Origin: Silvibacterium dinghuense
GTDB taxonomy: Bacteria > Acidobacteriota > Terriglobia > Terriglobales > Acidobacteriaceae
Assembly: GCF_004123295.1 (NCBI RefSeq)
Contig: NZ_SDMK01000001.1
Location: forward strand, 868,001-932,000
Length of the DNA stretch: 64,000 bases
Direction of reading: 5' to 3'
Shown here in pieces: positions 2,895 to 34,189 of this stretch (its first letter is position 1; the number at the start of each line of letters is the position of its first letter). The position numbers and the translations under genes were made by a program. Under the pieces are notes generated by a model. That model saw nothing but the letters and a program-made list of their open reading frames with translations, searched no databases and was not told the origin of the DNA.

Positions 2895-4979
2895 ATGCCA
2901 GCATTTCTGCTTGAAATCGGACTTGAAGAGATCCCGGCGCGCATGATCGCGCCGGCGCAGGCCGAGCTTGCCCGCCGCGTCGAAGACCTGCTCACCCGCG
3001 AACGCCTGATCGACGCATCGGAGGGGCTCGAGCTGCACAGCTATTCCACACCGCGCCGCCTTGCCGTGCTCGTGAAGCACGTGCACGAGTCGCAGGCCGA
3101 TACTGAGGAACAGCTCACCGGCCCGTCGTGGGCGGTTGCTTTCAAGGACGGCCAGCCCACGCCCGCAGCACAGGCCTTTGCCAAGAAGGCCGGCGTCGAT
3201 ATCGCCGCGCTGATGAAGACCGTCACCCCCAAGGGCGAGTATGTCTCGGCGACCGTGCACCGCAAGGGCCGCACCGCCAGCGAGATTCTTGCCGAGCAGC
3301 TGCCGAAGGAGATCGCCTCGATCTACTGGCCGAAGAATATGTACTGGCGCGCAGGCAAACCCGAGCGCTTCGTGCGTCCGCTCAAGTGGCTGGTCGCCAT
3401 CCTCGGGCACCAGATCGTGCCGGTTGAGTTCGCCGGCGTCACCGCCTCCAACGTCAGCCGCGGCCATCGCATCCTGCACGAGGGCAGCATCACCTTCGAG
3501 CACGCCGGGGACTATCTCGGCCAGCTCGAAGCTGCCTACGTCACTGCCGATGTCGAGCTGCGCCGCCATCGCATCCGCAAGGCTCTCGACGCTGCGACAC
3601 GGCTCATCCCCGGCGCCCGCTGGCGCGAGGATGAGCCGCTGGTCGACACCGTAACCCATCTCACCGAGTGGCCCACCGTGCTCCTTGGCAGCTTCGATGC
3701 GAGCTATCTCACGCTACCCGAAGAGGTGCTGGTCACGGTGATGCGCGATCACCAGAAGTACTTTGCCATCGAAGATGCCGCAGGCAAGCTTGCGCCCTAC
3801 TTCCTCACCGTGCTCAACACGCAACCAGAAGAGCATGGCGACGAGATCATCCGTCATGGCAACGAGCGCGTGCTGCGCGCCCGCTTCAACGATGCACGCT
3901 TCTTCTGGGACGTCGATCAGAAGACTCCGCTGACCGCGCGTCTCGAGATGCTGAAGACCGTGACCTTCCAGAAGGATCTGGGCAGCTACTACGCCAAGAC
4001 CGAGGCCAACATTGCAGTCGCCGAGCGCCTTGCCGGCATTGCGCAGCAGCGGGGCGCCGCCGTGGACGCGGCTGCGCTCATCACCGCCACGCGCCTCGCC
4101 AAAACCGACCTTACGGCGGAACTCGTGAAGGAATTCACCGAGTTGCAGGGCATTGTCGGCGGCCTCTATGCACGCGCGCAGGGACTCGGCGAGTCCGTCG
4201 CGCAGGCCATCTACTGGCAGTACTCACCGGCCGGCGTCGATGATCCGATTGCGCCGACCGCGGAAGGCCAGCTCCTCGGCCTCGCCGACCGCTTCCAGAC
4301 CATTCAGGCCATGTTTAGCATCGGCCTCGAGCCCTCCGGCTCGAAGGACCCCTTCGGCCTGCGCCGCGCCGCGAACGGGATCGTGAAGATCCTCGCCGAG
4401 AGTGGCCTGCCGCTGAAGCTCAGCGACCTGCTTGCAGGCACCGACGAAGCCGTGAAGGCAAAACTCGCCGCCTTCTTCCGCGAGCGTGTCGAGTTCTACC
4501 TGCGCGAGGTGAAGGGCTTTGCCTATGACGTGGTGAATGCGGTGCTCGCCGCCGGCTGCGACGACGTACGCGATGCGATTGCCCGCGCCGAAGCACTGAC
4601 CGCCGTGCGCGGCTCGGCTGACTTCATCGCCATCTCGGCTGCGTTCAAGCGCATCAAGAACATCCTGCGCCAGGCAGAAGAAAAGAAAATCACCGCATCC
4701 ACACTCGCGGCCACGCTCTTTGCCGACGACTCCGAGCGCACGCTGCATGCACATATCACCGAGGTCGATCCGCAGGTGGTCGCTCTCAGCGAGTCGCGCA
4801 ACTATCGTGAAGCACTCGAACGCATCGCGACACTGCGGCCGGACGTCGATCTCTTCTTCGATAAGGTGATGGTGATGGTGGAGGACGAAGCCGTGCGCGG
4901 CAACCGCCTCGCGCTGCTTGCGCAGATCCAAGGTTCATTCTCGTCCATCGCCGACTTCTCGGAAATCGTCACAGCTTAA
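2895..4979 (+). CDS. glyS: Glycyl-tRNA synthetase beta subunit
   Basis: Beta chain of the heterotetrameric glycyl-tRNA synthetase, carrying tRNA recognition including the C-terminal anticodon-binding region. The 694-residue length fits the family. The N-terminus LLEIGLEEIPARM, the central EVLVTVMRDHQKYF and the segment PFGLRRAANGIVKIL are characteristic. It follows glyQ and lies two bases before murB, so the genes are probably cotranscribed. The weak start context next to the TAGCT repeats is the only oddity. Confidence 0.95.
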   Translation: MPAFLLEIGLEEIPARMIAPAQAELARRVEDLLTRERLIDASEGLELHSYSTPRRLAVLVKHVHESQADTEEQLTGPSWAVAFKDGQPTPAAQAFAKKAGVDIAALMKTVTPKGEYVSATVHRKGRTASEILAEQLPKEIASIYWPKNMYWRAGKPERFVRPLKWLVAILGHQIVPVEFAGVTASNVSRGHRILHEGSITFEHAGDYLGQLEAAYVTADVELRRHRIRKALDAATRLIPGARWREDEPLVDTVTHLTEWPTVLLGSFDASYLTLPEEVLVTVMRDHQKYFAIEDAAGKLAPYFLTVLNTQPEEHGDEIIRHGNERVLRARFNDARFFWDVDQKTPLTARLEMLKTVTFQKDLGSYYAKTEANIAVAERLAGIAQQRGAAVDAAALITATRLAKTDLTAELVKEFTELQGIVGGLYARAQGLGESVAQAIYWQYSPAGVDDPIAPTAEGQLLGLADRFQTIQAMFSIGLEPSGSKDPFGLRRAANGIVKILAESGLPLKLSDLLAGTDEAVKAKLAAFFRERVEFYLREVKGFAYDVVNAVLAAGCDDVRDAIARAEALTAVRGSADFIAISAAFKRIKNILRQAEEKKITASTLAATLFADDSERTLHAHITEVDPQVVALSESRNYREALERIATLRPDVDLFFDKVMVMVEDEAVRGNRLALLAQIQGSFSSIADFSEIVTA

Positions 4980-4981
4980 CC

Positions 4982-6013
4982 ATGCAGTTCCGTGAACATG
5001 TTCCGCTCGCGCCCTACACGACCTTCGGCATCGGAGGTCCGGCGCGGTGGTTTGCCGAAGCCGTGCATGAGGACGAAGCCCTCGAGGCCGTCCGCTTCGC
5101 GCGCGAGCGCAGCCTGCCGCTCTTCCTCCTCGGCGGCGGCAGCAACCTGCTCGTCTCGGATGAGGGCTTTCCCGGCCTTGTGCTTCATCTCGCGAGCAAA
5201 GGGATCGAACAGAACGGCGGTCTCTTCCGCGCCGCCGCGGGCGAGAATTGGGATAGCTTCGTCAGCCATGCAGTCTCGCTTGGCTATGCGGGCATCGAGT
5301 GCCTCGCGGGCATTCCCGGCACCGTCGGCGGTACGCCAGTGCAGAATGTCGGCGCATATGGGCAAGAGGTCGCGGAGACCATCGTTCGCGTCCGCACGCT
5401 CGATCTTGAAACACTCGCCTTCACAGAGATGGAAGCTGCGGACTGCGCCTTCGCCTATCGCCGCAGCCTCTTCAACTCGACGGCGCGTGGCCGCTATCTC
5501 GTCACGCGTGTCGATTACCGCCTTACGCACAACGGCCAGCCCCGGCTCAATTATGCCGATCTGAAGAAGTATTTCGTGAACCAGCCGAAACCATCGCTCG
5601 TAGAGGTTGCCACGGCTGTCCGCGCCATCCGCCGCGAGAAAGGCATGCTGCTCGTGGACGGCGATCCCGATTGCCGCAGCGCGGGCAGCTTTTTCAAAAA
5701 TCCAGTGATCTCCGCCGGGCACTACGCGCGCCTGGCTACTGCGCACGGCAGCGCCATCCCGAGCTATCCCGCGCATGCTGAACATGTGAAGCTTCCCGCC
5801 GCATGGCTGCTCGACCAGGCCGGCTTCCACAAGGGCTTCGCGCAGGGACGCGCAGGCATCTCCAGCCGCCACACGCTCGCGCTCATCAATCGTGGAAATG
5901 CCACTGCCGCCGATATTCTCGCCCTGCGCGACACCATCATCGCCGCGGTCGAAGCGAAGTTCGGCATTCCTCTCGAACCGGAGCCGGTGTGGCTCGGCCC
6001 ATCCCACAACTAG
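4982..6013 (+). CDS. murB: UDP-N-acetylenolpyruvoylglucosamine reductase
   Basis: MurB reduces UDP-GlcNAc-enolpyruvate to UDP-MurNAc with NADPH and FAD, the second committed step of peptidoglycan precursor synthesis. The FAD domain shows the family N-terminus (YTTFGIGGPARWF), LLGGGSNLLVSDEGF, and the loop GIECLAGIPGTVGG. The catalytic serine sits in GSFFKNP and the late glutamate region in PLEPEPVWLG. With 343 residues and the YRRSLF segment it looks like the longer type I form. The start is two bases after the glyS stop, indicating translational coupling. It converges with modC, only 15 bases away. Confidence 0.94.
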   Translation: MQFREHVPLAPYTTFGIGGPARWFAEAVHEDEALEAVRFARERSLPLFLLGGGSNLLVSDEGFPGLVLHLASKGIEQNGGLFRAAAGENWDSFVSHAVSLGYAGIECLAGIPGTVGGTPVQNVGAYGQEVAETIVRVRTLDLETLAFTEMEAADCAFAYRRSLFNSTARGRYLVTRVDYRLTHNGQPRLNYADLKKYFVNQPKPSLVEVATAVRAIRREKGMLLVDGDPDCRSAGSFFKNPVISAGHYARLATAHGSAIPSYPAHAEHVKLPAAWLLDQAGFHKGFAQGRAGISSRHTLALINRGNATAADILALRDTIIAAVEAKFGIPLEPEPVWLGPSHN

Positions 6014-29389: not shown

Positions 29390-29460
29390 GCGTCGGGCTC
29401 CTCTGCAGAACTCCACCGTCAACCCTTGTTTTAAGCTCTTCCCCGTATAAGGCCTGTGGC

Positions 29461-29531
29461 CACGGGTGGTGAAGGATGCGGATCCTTCGTCTGTGACACG
29501 ATTCTCTCCGCATCGCGACCATTCCCCTGTG
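29461..29531 (+). ncRNA. Candidate Y RNA-like element 1
   Basis: The outer stem CACGGG pairs with CCTGTG (one G-U), then a bulged T467 and a GG/CC pair, the same pattern as the three elements downstream, although the conserved word is GGTGGTG instead of CCGGTGGCG. Inside is a perfect hairpin, GAAGGAT-GCGG-ATCCTTC (29471-29488). The 3' strand ends CCATTCCCC, like CAATCCCC of element 2. It is the smallest and most degenerate of the four. Confidence 0.35.
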
Positions 29532-29587
29532 TCCGCATATGCCTCGCACGAGGAAGCGAAGCTGTCCCTCGTCCTGCATCGGCATGC

Positions 29588-29707
29588 GCTCCGGTGGCGC
29601 AGCACACGGTTACTTCTTGGTACGCCGTAAGGCAAAGCGGTTCGACTCCGCCCGGCCTTCTCTTCGCGGAGGATGCCGGAACCCGTGTGCGATTCAATCC
29701 CCGGAGC
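29588..29707 (+). ncRNA. Candidate Y RNA-like element 2
   Basis: GCTCCGG (29588-29594) pairs with CCGGAGC (29701-29707), with T595 bulged and GG/CC paired next, then a 10-bp stem GCACACGGTT against AACCCGTGTGC (one extra C). The terminal module carries a T-arm-like hairpin, GCGG-TTCGACT-CCGC (29637-29651). A long hairpin closed near TCGC follows (CCGGC with GCCGG, inner TTCTCT with GGAGGA). No D-arm is present, so it is at most half of a tRNA mimic. The conserved word CCGGTGGCG is at 29591-29599. Confidence 0.55.
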
Positions 29708-29728
29708 ATGCGGAGCAGGCCAGGGACA

Positions 29729-29855
29729 CGATCTCCGGTGGCGAAAGCCCAGGATACTTCCTGCCTATGAATACCGTGGACGAGGAAACCACCCACCGCA
29801 CGGAAGAGACTGGTCCGTGCGGCTCCAACCCGAGCTGCCTCATCCCCGGAGATCG
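29729..29855 (+). ncRNA. Candidate Y RNA-like element 3
   Basis: A perfect 10-bp closing helix, CGATCTCCGG (29729-29738) with CCGGAGATCG (29846-29855), again with the T bulge and GG/CC pair of the shared word CCGGTGGCG (29735-29743). The interior differs: GGC-GAAA-GCC, CAGGA-TACT-TCCTG, GTGG/CCAC, and a 9-bp hairpin CCGCACGGA with TCCGTGCGG (29796-29822). No tRNA-like arms are recognisable. Confidence 0.5.
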
Positions 29856-29878
29856 CAATGGTTCTCGCAATTTGTAGC

Positions 29879-30009
29879 TGTGCCGGTGGCGTGTGAGTGG
29901 GTTCCTTCGTTAAACGGCAGGCCGCAGGTTCGAACCCTGCATCGGCGCAGGCCGATTAGCTCAACAGGTTAGAGCAGCCGTAAACCCGCTCCGGCAATAC
30001 CCCGGCGCA
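29879..30009 (+). ncRNA. Y RNA with permuted tRNA-like module (YrlA-type)
   Basis: The T-arm GCAGG-TTCGAAC-CCTGC (29924-29940) is followed by the acceptor-like strand ATCGGC, a GCAG loop and GCCGAT (29941-29956). Next come TA (positions 8-9), the D-arm GCTC-AACAGGTTA-GAGC (29959-29975) with the conserved GG, and A26. The anticodon stem is ACGGC (29914-29918) with GCCGT (29977-29981). It continues as GAGTGGGTT with AACCCGCTC and a bulged outer helix TGTGCCGG with CCGGCGCA. This is a tRNA whose ends are joined and whose anticodon stem opens into a long helix, as in YrlA Y RNAs, which tether effectors to Ro60. The ro60 gene is 490 bases downstream. A permuted functional tRNA is the alternative. 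Confidence 0.82.
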
Positions 30010-30038: not shown

Positions 30039-30063
30039 CCAACCTGTGCGTGAGGAAGGCATC

Positions 30064-30378
30064 ATGAGCACCACGTTTACCGTGCGCAACGGAACGGCCG
30101 TCGGGCAGGAGTCGCTCTGCCGGACCTGCCGCCACGCGCACATTCAGACCGGCTACGCGGACAGCGAGGAGGAGGTTCGCTGCGGCTATTTCTACGACCA
30201 GCCGCGGCTCATCCCCTTCGCCGTGAACCAGTGCACCGACTTCCTCGACAAGCTCTCGCCCACGCTCTACGAGATGCAGAAGATCGCATTCCTCATCGAC
30301 GTGAAGAAGACGCGAGCAATTGCCGGCTTCGGCGAAGCGGCCATCAAGGTCACGAAGCCTGAGGAAGACGATGACTGA
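30064..30378 (+). CDS. Small Cys-rich protein between Y RNA array and Ro60
   Basis: A 104-residue protein of unrecognised family. Cysteines C19, C22, C40 and C57 with H24 and H26 could form a zinc ribbon or iron-sulfur site (ESLCRTCRHAHIQ, then EVRCGYF and VNQCTDFLDKL). The acidic C-terminus ends EEDDD. GAGGAAGG lies five bases before the ATG. It sits between the RNA elements and ro60 and is probably cotranscribed with both, so an RNA-binding or RNP accessory role is suspected, not shown. Confidence 0.75.
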   Translation: MSTTFTVRNGTAVGQESLCRTCRHAHIQTGYADSEEEVRCGYFYDQPRLIPFAVNQCTDFLDKLSPTLYEMQKIAFLIDVKKTRAIAGFGEAAIKVTKPEEDDD

Positions 30379-30390
30379 TTGTCATGCCCC

Positions 30391-30410
30391 GTGCGCACCA
30401 TGGTGCGCAC
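30391..30410. promoter_or_regulatory. Perfect 20-bp palindrome in the ro60 leader
   Basis: GTGCGCACCATGGTGCGCAC reads the same on both strands. It lies 90 bases before the ro60 ATG and could be an operator for a dimeric regulator or a stem-loop in the mRNA. Confidence 0.5.
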
Positions 30411-30500: not shown

Positions 30501-31829
30501 ATGGCGCGCCTGAACATTCTGAAGTTGAGCCACCTTGGATTCCGCGGAGCCGCGCTGCGCGCGCATGAGGGCGCGCCCGCTGCCGTCATCAGCGCGGAAG
30601 AGCAGCTGCGTCGTGCCGTTCTCGCCTGCATGCTGTGGGAGAACGAGTTCTACGAAGACGGCGAGTCGATCGCCACGCGCATTTCGGCACTGGTGCCGCG
30701 CGTCGCCGCGGAGACAGTGGCCGCGCTTGCCGTGGAAGCCCGCGAACGGATGAAGCTGCGCCATGTGCCGTTGCTGCTGGTGCGCGAGATGGCTCGCTAC
30801 GAGACGCATCGCGGACTGGTGGCGGCAACGCTGGCCCGCGTCATCCAGCGCGCCGATGAGTTGGCGGAGTTCCTCGCCATTTACTGGAAGGACGGCCGCC
30901 AGCCACTCTCCGCGCAGGTAAAGAAGGGGCTGGCCGCGGCCTTCACGCGCTTCGACTCCTACGCGCTCGCGAAGTACAACCGCGAGGGCGCGGTAAAGCT
31001 CCGCGACGTGCTCTTTCTCTCGCACGCCAAGCCGGTCAGCTCCGAGCAGGCGCTCGTGTGGCGTCAACTCATCGACGGCACGCTGCCTTCGCCCGAGACG
31101 TGGGAAGTTCGCCTCTCGCGCGGCGAGCAGAAGCGCGAGGTCTGGGAGTCGATGCTGCGCGAGAACTCGCTCGGTGCGCTGGCCCTGCTCCGCAACCTGC
31201 GTAACATGCAGGCTGCGGGCGTGGACGAGGCGCTCGTGCGTCATGCGCTCGAGCTGATCCGCGTGGAGCGCGTGCTGCCCTTCCGCTTCCTTGCCGCGGC
31301 GCGCTATGCGCCGCAGTGGGAGCCGGAGCTGGAACAGGCCATGTTCGCAAGCGTCATCGGACAGGCGCCGTTCGCGGGCCGCACCGTGCTGCTGGTCGAC
31401 GTCTCCGGCAGCATGGGTGCACGGCTCTCCAGCCGTTCGGAGATGCTGCGCATGGATGCGGCTGCAGGTCTCGCGGTACTGCTGCGCGAAGTCTCCGCAA
31501 AGGTGAGCGTCTATACCTTTTCGGACGCGCTCAAGGCCGTGTCTCCGCGCCGCGGCTTCGCACTGCGGGATGCCATCGTGCACTCGCAGCCGCACGGCGG
31601 TACGCAGCTCGGACGCGCACTGGGCGAGTTGCGCGAATCGTACGACCGCCTCGTCATCATCACTGACGAGCAGTCGCACGACCGCGTGCCCGCGCCGCGC
31701 GGACGCGGCTACGTGATCAATGTGGCCTCTGCCCGCAACGGCGTCGGCTACGGAGTCTGGACGCACATCGACGGCTGGAGCGAAGCCGTTGTCGACTACA
31801 TCCGCGCTACTGATGCCGGCAGCGCCTAA
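30501..31829 (+). CDS. Ro60 ortholog (TROVE domain plus vWA), Rsr-type
   Basis: The 442-residue protein has the Ro60 layout. An N-terminal TROVE HEAT-repeat ring (GAALRAHEGAPAA, LWENEFYEDGESIATRI, through FTRFDSYALAKYNREGAVKLRDVLFLSH) binds single-stranded RNA ends inside the ring and Y RNA outside. The vWA domain has MIDAS residues in DVSGSMGA (D300, S302, S304) and VIITDEQSHD. Bacterial Rsr with Y RNA and PNPase takes part in RNA degradation and stress survival. GGAGG precedes the ATG at 30501; an in-frame ATG at 30384 would add 39 atypical residues. The nearby YrlA-like RNA strongly supports the assignment. Confidence 0.92.
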   Translation: MARLNILKLSHLGFRGAALRAHEGAPAAVISAEEQLRRAVLACMLWENEFYEDGESIATRISALVPRVAAETVAALAVEARERMKLRHVPLLLVREMARYETHRGLVAATLARVIQRADELAEFLAIYWKDGRQPLSAQVKKGLAAAFTRFDSYALAKYNREGAVKLRDVLFLSHAKPVSSEQALVWRQLIDGTLPSPETWEVRLSRGEQKREVWESMLRENSLGALALLRNLRNMQAAGVDEALVRHALELIRVERVLPFRFLAAARYAPQWEPELEQAMFASVIGQAPFAGRTVLLVDVSGSMGARLSSRSEMLRMDAAAGLAVLLREVSAKVSVYTFSDALKAVSPRRGFALRDAIVHSQPHGGTQLGRALGELRESYDRLVIITDEQSHDRVPAPRGRGYVINVASARNGVGYGVWTHIDGWSEAVVDYIRATDAGSA

Positions 31830-31986: not shown

Positions 31987-33054
31987 ATGGCATCCGGCAC
32001 AGTCCCCTCCAGGGCAGAGGTAGGCGTGGTGAAGAAAATCGGCGTTCTGTTCGGCATGGAAAACACCTTTCCCGGTGCGCTGGTCGAGCGCATCAATTCC
32101 ATGAACCTTGACGGCATCTCCGCCGAGTTTGTCGAAACCGGCGCGGTCCGCCTCGACGTTCCGCCCAGGTATGCGGTCATTGTCGATCGCATCTCGCACG
32201 ATATCCCCTTCTACCGGGCCTTCCTCAAGCACGCCGCGCTGCATGGCACCGCCATCATCAACAACCCCTTCTGGTGGTCGGCCGACGACAAGTTCTTCAA
32301 CTACGCGCTGGCCGCGAAGCTGGGCGTGGCCGTGCCGCCCACCGTCATCCTGCCGCACAAGCACTTTCCGCAGGGCACCACCGAGCGCTCCATGCGCAAC
32401 CTCGAGTACCCGCTCAAGTGGGATGAGATCTTCGACTACGTCGGCTTCCCGGCCTTCCTCAAGCCGGTCGACGGCGGCGGATGGCGCGACGTGTACCACG
32501 TCCACAACCGCGAGGATTTCTTCTGCGCCTATGACCAGAGCCGGGATCTCTGCATGACCCTGCAGCGCGCCGTACACTTCGACGAATACTTCCGCTGTTA
32601 CGTGGTCGGGCAGGACAAGGTGCACATCATGCCCTACGACCCGCGCCGCCCGCACCATGAGCGCTATCTCCAGGACCCGCCGGCCTACAGCAAGAAGCTC
32701 CTCAAGCGCGTCGAGAAGGATGCCCTCACCCTTTGCCGCGCCCTCGGTTACGACCTCAACACGGTCGAGTTCGCCGTCGAAAACGGCATCCCCTACGCTA
32801 TCGATTTCATGAACCCGGCACCTGACGCCGACCTGCACTCGGTCGGCGCCGCCAACTTTGAGTGGATCGTCCAGCAGGTCGCCGAGCTTGCCGTGAAAAA
32901 GGCGAAGAAGGCTCCTGACGCACCGGCCCCGCAGGCCTCCGTGCTCCTCGGATCTTCGGTCAAAACCGTAAAAAAAGCAGCCCAAAAACCAGCAAAGGCC
33001 AAATCCAGGGCAAAGAAGCCCCCACTGGCCGATGCACAGCCCGCCGACAGCTAG
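31987..33054 (+). CDS. ATP-grasp domain protein (RimK/carboxylate-amine ligase-like)
   Basis: A 355-residue protein whose body reads as an ATP-grasp enzyme: KKIGVLFGMENTFPGALVERI, a GFPAFLKPVDGGGWRDVYHV lysine/glycine-loop region, DEYFRCYVVGQDKVHIMPYD, and YDLNTVEFAVENG followed by AIDFMNPAPD for the metal-binding end. The last about 55 residues are Lys/Ala/Pro rich and disordered, resembling a histone-like tail. The start may instead be GTG at 32026 or 32029. It is followed by a GCS2-type ligase; such pairs are expected to make short peptides or modify an amine. Substrate unknown. Confidence 0.78.
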   Translation: MASGTVPSRAEVGVVKKIGVLFGMENTFPGALVERINSMNLDGISAEFVETGAVRLDVPPRYAVIVDRISHDIPFYRAFLKHAALHGTAIINNPFWWSADDKFFNYALAAKLGVAVPPTVILPHKHFPQGTTERSMRNLEYPLKWDEIFDYVGFPAFLKPVDGGGWRDVYHVHNREDFFCAYDQSRDLCMTLQRAVHFDEYFRCYVVGQDKVHIMPYDPRRPHHERYLQDPPAYSKKLLKRVEKDALTLCRALGYDLNTVEFAVENGIPYAIDFMNPAPDADLHSVGAANFEWIVQQVAELAVKKAKKAPDAPAPQASVLLGSSVKTVKKAAQKPAKAKSRAKKPPLADAQPADS

Positions 33055-33082
33055 AATTGAGCCATCGGCAGAGACAGAGCGC

Positions 33083-34189
33083 ATGCGGCCTACCTTCACC
33101 ATCGGCATCGAAGAGGAATACCAGACGGTTGATCCCGTCACCCGCGACCTGCGCTCCCACATCTCCACCGAGATGCTGGCCAAAGGCAAAATCCGCCTCG
33201 AAGAGCGGGTTAAGGCCGAGATGCACCAGTCTGTCGTCGAAGTGGGCACCCGCGTCTGCCGCACCATCGGCGAGGCCCGCATCGATCTCTACGATCTGCG
33301 CCGCCAGATGATCCTGCTCGCCCGCGAGCATAACCTGCTGCTCGTCGCCGGCGCCACGCATCCCTTCGCCGACTGGCGCAAGCAGGAGATCTACCCCGAC
33401 GAACGCTATGCCCGCGTCGTCGAGGATCTGCAATCAGTCGCCCGTGAAAATCTCATCTTCGGCCTGCACGTCCACGTCGGCATCGAAGACAAGGAAGCCG
33501 CCATCCGCGTCATGAACTCGATGCGCTACTTCCTGCCGCACATCCTGGCGCTCTCCACCAACTCGCCCTTCTGGCGCGGCGACAAAACCGGCCTCAAAAG
33601 CTATCGAGCCAAGGTCTTCGACAAATTCCCACGCACGAATATCCCCGATAGCTTTGCCAGCTACAGCGAGTTCGACGACTTCGTAAACCTGCTCATCAAG
33701 ACCAACTGCCTCGACAACGCCAAGAAGATCTGGTGGGACATCCGCCCGCATCCCTTCTTCAGCACCATCGAGGTCCGCATCTGCGACATCCCCATGCGCG
33801 CCGAGGAGACGCTGGCCATCGCCGCGCTCATCCAGGCGACGGCGGCCAAGCTCTACCGCCTGCATGAGCGCAACCAGGACTGGCGCCAGTATTCCCGCGC
33901 GCTCATCATGGAGAACAAGTGGCGCGCCGTCCGCTACGGCCTCGACGGCAAACTGATCGATTTCGGCAAGCAAATCGAAGTTCCAGAGCGCGAACTCATC
34001 GTCGAGTACATCGACTTTGTGGATGAGGTGGTTGACGAACTCCAGTGCCGCGACGCCATCGCCTACATCCACACCATCCTGCGCGAAGGCACAGGCGCCG
34101 ACCGCCAGCTCAAGAAATTCGAAGAGACCGGCGATCTCAAGGCCGTGGTGGATTACATGGCGGAAGAGACACAGGCGGGGCTGTTTTAA
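33083..34189 (+). CDS. Carboxylate-amine ligase, GCS2/YbdK type
   Basis: A 368-residue enzyme of the glutamate-cysteine ligase family 2. It has TFTIGIEEEYQTVDP at the N-terminus, MHQSVVEVGTRVC, LLVAGATHPFADW, ENLIFGLHVHVGIEDKE and PHPFFSTIEVRICDIPM. The reaction is ATP-dependent amide bond formation between a carboxylate, often glutamate, and an amine. An ATG at 33032 would overlap the ATP-grasp gene; the ATG at 33083 fits the family N-terminus. The two-gene pair implies two sequential ligations. Confidence 0.86.
   Translation: MRPTFTIGIEEEYQTVDPVTRDLRSHISTEMLAKGKIRLEERVKAEMHQSVVEVGTRVCRTIGEARIDLYDLRRQMILLAREHNLLLVAGATHPFADWRKQEIYPDERYARVVEDLQSVARENLIFGLHVHVGIEDKEAAIRVMNSMRYFLPHILALSTNSPFWRGDKTGLKSYRAKVFDKFPRTNIPDSFASYSEFDDFVNLLIKTNCLDNAKKIWWDIRPHPFFSTIEVRICDIPMRAEETLAIAALIQATAAKLYRLHERNQDWRQYSRALIMENKWRAVRYGLDGKLIDFGKQIEVPERELIVEYIDFVDEVVDELQCRDAIAYIHTILREGTGADRQLKKFEETGDLKAVVDYMAEETQAGLF

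Follow-up and report, generated by a model that had tools for sequence, protein, structure and literature searches.

Bacterial Ro60 is known to work together with PNPase. The described loci include the Ro60 (Rsr)-Y RNA locus of Deinococcus and the rsr-yrlBA-rtcBA operon of Salmonella (PMC7790460), and the tRNA-like Y RNA is attributed to Chen et al. 2014, as cited in PMC7790460 and PMC4726728. The loci of Acidobacteriaceae share with the Rsr loci of Deinococcus and Salmonella the ro60 gene and its adjoining tRNA-like YrlA RNAs, together with, at several loci, an RtcB gene within the cluster (PMC7790460), yet they add a four-cysteine gene 5' of ro60 (hereafter P) and, in some cases, Hen1-Pnkp or a BCS1-like ATPase. 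No description of such a gene near ro60 was found in a literature search of limited coverage, so that an earlier mention is possible. P bears on two questions, namely the role of the tRNA-like part of the Y RNAs and the partners of Ro60 besides PNPase.

Gene organization in the window

The analyzed window, a stretch of 64,000 nucleotides from Silvibacterium dinghuense, contains four YrlA-like Y RNAs (29459-30009) followed by P and then by ro60 (Table 1). The position of P between a Y RNA array and ro60, proposed in the preliminary description, was borne out by a covariance model (R1), by covariation and by the domains of the ro60 product.

Table 1. Coordinates of the features surrounding P in the window
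Feature	Coordinates	Strand	Basis or remark
Y RNA 1 (weakest, E 6e-5)	29459..29533	+	Covariance model R1
Y RNA 2	29587..29708	+	Covariance model R1
Y RNA 3	29731..29853	+	Covariance model R1
Y RNA 4, YrlA type, tRNA-like T and D arms	29879..30009	+	Rfam RF02553, model R1, covariation
Ribosome-binding site GAGGAAGG, purine-rich	30052..30059	+	Sequence, upstream of the P ATG
P, four-cysteine protein	30064..30378	+	ATG start, 104 aa; acidic tail, putative metal-binding
Perfect 20-base palindrome GTGCGCACCATGGTGCGCAC	30391..30410	.	Sequence; between P and ro60
ro60 (TROVE + vWA)	30501..31829	+	Conserved start ATG 30501, not 30384

The fourth Y RNA ends 54 bases before the start codon of P. Its match to Rfam YrlA (RF02553, positions 29894-29995) fell short of the gathering score of 69, at 39.3 bits (E 8e-7), and its match to R1 is partly a product of construction, since the window was one of the 20 rows (homologous loci) from which the model was built. 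Two-sided compensatory changes were detected in 21 of the 31 R1 pairs (in at least one sequence each, among the 20 loci), and the RNAs neighboring P showed the tRNA-like arms and the closing stem with compensatory changes that are expected of YrlA. Judging from these sequence comparisons, the array of the window is real. Y RNAs flank P at nearly all ro60 loci, and in many relatives the array extends into the gap between P and ro60, P thus lying within it. An exclusive tie of P to YrlA was ruled out, given that ro60 loci lacking P also bear YrlA-type RNAs.

The product of ro60 carries both domains of bacterial Ro60, TROVE (PF05731, E 5e-15) and vWA (PF13519, E 2e-6), and also matched phrog_850. 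The palindrome preceding this gene is missing from both of the nearest relatives. Further downstream, a conserved gene (31987-33054), for which no match to Pfam was obtained at E 1, adjoins a gene of the glutamate-cysteine ligase family (33032-34189).

Features and kinship of the P protein

The P protein (MSTTFTVRNGTAVGQESLCRTCRHAHIQTGYADSEEEVRCGYFYDQPRLIPFAVNQCTDFLDKLSPTLYEMQKIAFLIDVKKTRAIAGFGEAAIKVTKPEEDDD) contains cysteines at positions 19, 22, 40 and 57 (C-x2-C-x17-C-x16-C), and histidines at positions 24 and 26. Its tail, EEDDD, is acidic. Among the 568 stop-to-stop frames of at least 60 aa in the window, this cysteine spacing was found in P alone, and the 5.1-Mb genome holds a single copy of the gene. 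GC content by codon position was 0.58/0.41/0.88. The closest named relatives belong to Acidobacteriaceae bacterium ZG23-2 (76% identity) and Acidobacterium sp. S8 (68%), with dN/dS values of 0.16 and 0.31, respectively, which indicate that P is translated and selected; these comparisons confirmed P as a true coding gene under purifying selection, not a chance ORF. The four-cysteine ORF of the preliminary description was therefore upheld by its reading frame, dN/dS, codon-position GC and unique spacing, and the acidic tail and strong ribosome-binding site reported there were both recovered. The two histidines were found as described in the window protein, but they are not invariant across the family.

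In an alignment of 36 diverse family members only the four cysteines and Gly88 were invariant, and the spacing within the family was C-x2-C-x16/17-C-x13-16-C. The whole protein is acidic (family median pI 5.3), while the portion preceding the GF tail has a median pI of 8.5. A second subfamily shows a hydrophobic stretch at its N-terminus. P genes occur in tandem in L014 (9593-10267), L124 (2039-2648) and L122 (35-908), with one gene per subfamily in L014 and L122. In L117 (1565-1909, genome G400), where ro60 is present, the last cysteine is replaced by arginine.

No significant family match was obtained in Pfam, NCBIfam, PHROG, PADLOC or PDB, either for the single protein or for all 36 aligned members, in agreement with the earlier statement that P belongs to no recognized family; nor did a known unrelated family emerge. 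P is best explained as the founding member of an undescribed family of small proteins. The best weak profile matches were to YcgN cysteine cluster proteins and Csf1, which resemble P in cysteine spacing (best E 0.003-0.004, in 2-3 of the 36 members). These matches were not significant over the 36 members and were absent for the window protein; they are probably driven by the cysteines only. Searches of phage and plasmid records for P gave no match, and those of viral contigs with the window protein gave none either; the one viral-contig match, obtained with another member (L147), turned out to be a chance peptide inside an unrelated ORF.

An RNA-binding zinc ribbon had been suggested as an example of what P might be. 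Like classical zinc ribbons, P has four cysteines starting with a CxxC knuckle, and the four potential metal ligands are conserved in 75 of the 78 members. However, it has one CxxC knuckle where zinc ribbons have two, its second cysteine pair being separated by 13-16 residues, and no family or structure match was found. The AlphaFold2 model, built from 3 sequences only, had a mean pLDDT of 39.6 and a pTM of 0.28, too low to be informative. P as a candidate RNA-binding zinc ribbon is thus unproven. Judging from the cysteines alone, these residues may coordinate a single metal ion (probably zinc) and organize the core fold of the protein.

Distribution of P and ro60 in Acidobacteriaceae

A profile search of 398 Acidobacteriaceae genomes detected P in 76 and ro60 in 73 (both in 58, P only in 18, ro60 only in 15, neither in 307), a co-occurrence with an odds ratio of ~66 (Fisher p 2e-39). 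The protein distances of P and ro60 were correlated (Mantel r 0.57; none of 5000 permutations as high); both this and the Fisher value ignore shared descent, the genomes being related and their independence overstated. In all 58 genomes with both genes, P and ro60 shared strand and contig, with P on the 5' side, which is the genetic linkage expected of a component of the Ro60 RNP, and the distance between the two had a median of 238 bp (≤700 bp in 51 of 58). Outside this family, no P was found in nine sampled TROVE genomes, nor a divergent P in seven 3-kb ro60 loci from other families of Acidobacteriota.

Five distant homologues of P, solitary and belonging to three other Acidobacteriota families, were found in genomes where searches for TROVE and RtcB detected neither. 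They would suit an unrelated housekeeping role, with P merely a genomic neighbor of ro60. This is nevertheless highly improbable in view of the odds ratio, of the constant order and strand in 58 genomes, and of the fact that several loci link P to RtcB, Hen1-Pnkp and BCS1-like genes; an association with ro60 so strong and so ordered disfavors a mere bystander.

No TROVE match was obtained in the 18 Acidobacteriaceae genomes with P only, and P was intact in most of them. Based on the tree of P, at least 10 changes of the Ro60 label are needed, although the short sequences limit resolution and the tree alone gives no direction; P copies lacking Ro60 would thus have arisen about ten times. Relics reveal the direction of change in some of these loci: L048 retains remains of rtcB, L052 gives a short and weak match to ro60 (E 4e-4), and L058 carries a degenerate Y RNA. 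At a single syntenic site, P and ro60 were found together after asnS in L083, L086 and L097, P alone in L045, L049, L050 and L053-L055, a frameshifted P in L057, and ro60 alone in L067. This asnS-linked position is regarded as ancestral, and kept by some of the P copies without Ro60.

The preliminary description had placed P as a candidate component of the Ro60 particle, that is, as a stable RNP subunit binding Ro60 or Y RNA directly. In favor of such a subunit, its 5' same-strand linkage to ro60 never varies across 58 genomes, Y RNAs adjoin it, the divergence of both proteins is correlated, and two copies without ro60 have decayed (C19Y in L053, frameshift in L057). On the other hand, 18 of the 76 family genomes with P lack a TROVE gene, copies without ro60 in genus g51 are under purifying selection (dN/dS 0.11-0.17), and P was undetected (no match at E 0.001) in 15 of the 73 ro60 genomes, including that of the asnS-linked L067, some of the absences in the survey falling in incomplete genomes. 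A stable subunit is therefore clearly unlikely, and an obligatory one is not supported, because P occurs without Ro60, ro60 occurs without P, and copies without Ro60 are still selected. The linkage to ro60 in Acidobacteriaceae, which the proposed neighborhood survey was to assess, stood up as a strong one, yet P also occurs apart from Ro60, which in turn does not require it; the homologues without ro60 that had been named as evidence against the proposal were partly encountered, in the 18 family and the 5 distant genomes.

RNA-repair islands and possible role of P

Annotation of the neighboring genes by Pfam and tblastn showed that some P/ro60 clusters encode RtcB, Hen1, Pnkp ligase, BCS1-like AAA+ and ORF6N proteins. 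The locus L095 (3553-10296, genome G088) reads P-rtcB-Hen1-Pnkp-ro60 from 5' to 3', with Y RNAs and a divergent ORF6N gene, Pnkp being a kinase-phosphatase-ligase, while L015 reads P-bcs1-rtcB-ro60 and L115 bcs1-P-rtcB-ro60. The bcs1 gene adjoins P in L015, L092 (bcs1 at 4592-5839), L115 and L119, as well as in L044, L048 and L052, which lack ro60; L047 holds P-rtcB without ro60. Several ro60 loci without P bear bcs1 instead: L061 (4547-5800), L064, L068, L069 and L073.

Such arrangements, together with the hydrophobic N-terminal stretch of the second subfamily, could mean that the main partner of P is RtcB or the BCS1-like AAA+ ATPase, with Ro60 encountered only through a common RNA-repair island. 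We consider this quite improbable, given that bcs1 and rtcB are both missing from the immediate surroundings of P in most P-ro60 loci, including that of the window, and that no RtcB match was found in the genome of the window. In most loci P also opens the cluster as its first protein-coding gene and, being small with four cysteines and an acidic tail, might regulate the locus at the transcriptional or translational level, for instance as a sensor of metal, of redox state or of damaged RNA; yet no DNA-binding motif or family was recognized in it and it is kept where the locus has otherwise disappeared, so that a regulator appears very improbable.

The reading we favor, with confidence only somewhat better than even, is that P is a putative metal-binding accessory factor of Ro60/Y-RNA and RNA-repair loci in Acidobacteriaceae. 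It is consistent with the fixed order with ro60, the flanking Y RNAs, the repair contexts, the correlated divergence, the selection on P and the conserved motif. Against it, P persists in several genomes where its vicinity lacks ro60, Y RNA and rtcB, and in the five distant ones, so that its main function could be a different one; the acidity of the whole protein and its lack of a known relative were also counted against it.

As an accessory factor, P would recognize tRNA-type RNA or a partner protein and supply Ro60, RtcB or Pnkp with RNA that is damaged or structured. The neighboring Y RNA would engage P through its tRNA-like module, and the acidic C-terminal tail may act as a contact or regulatory segment. 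That P binds tRNA-type RNA is a guess, prompted by the tRNA-like character of the Y RNA and by the RtcB and Pnkp neighbors, and this recruitment of RNA to repair proteins is, taken as a whole, a tentative proposal, held at well under even confidence, by which P could stay useful where Ro60 and Y RNAs were lost. It is unlikely, though conceivable, that P represents the first protein recognized as a dedicated partner for the tRNA-like module of bacterial Y RNAs, or more broadly for damaged tRNA, with a new metal-binding RNA-recognition fold coupling Ro60 to RtcB and Pnkp-Hen1. A marker of Ro60/Y-RNA loci in many genera, joined at some of them by RtcB, Hen1-Pnkp and BCS1-like genes and surviving Ro60 at others, P offers a concrete and easily expressed candidate partner.

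Genes encoding an ORF6N domain were also observed, in opposite orientation, within the ro60 loci L069 (5671-6261), L092-L095 and L119.
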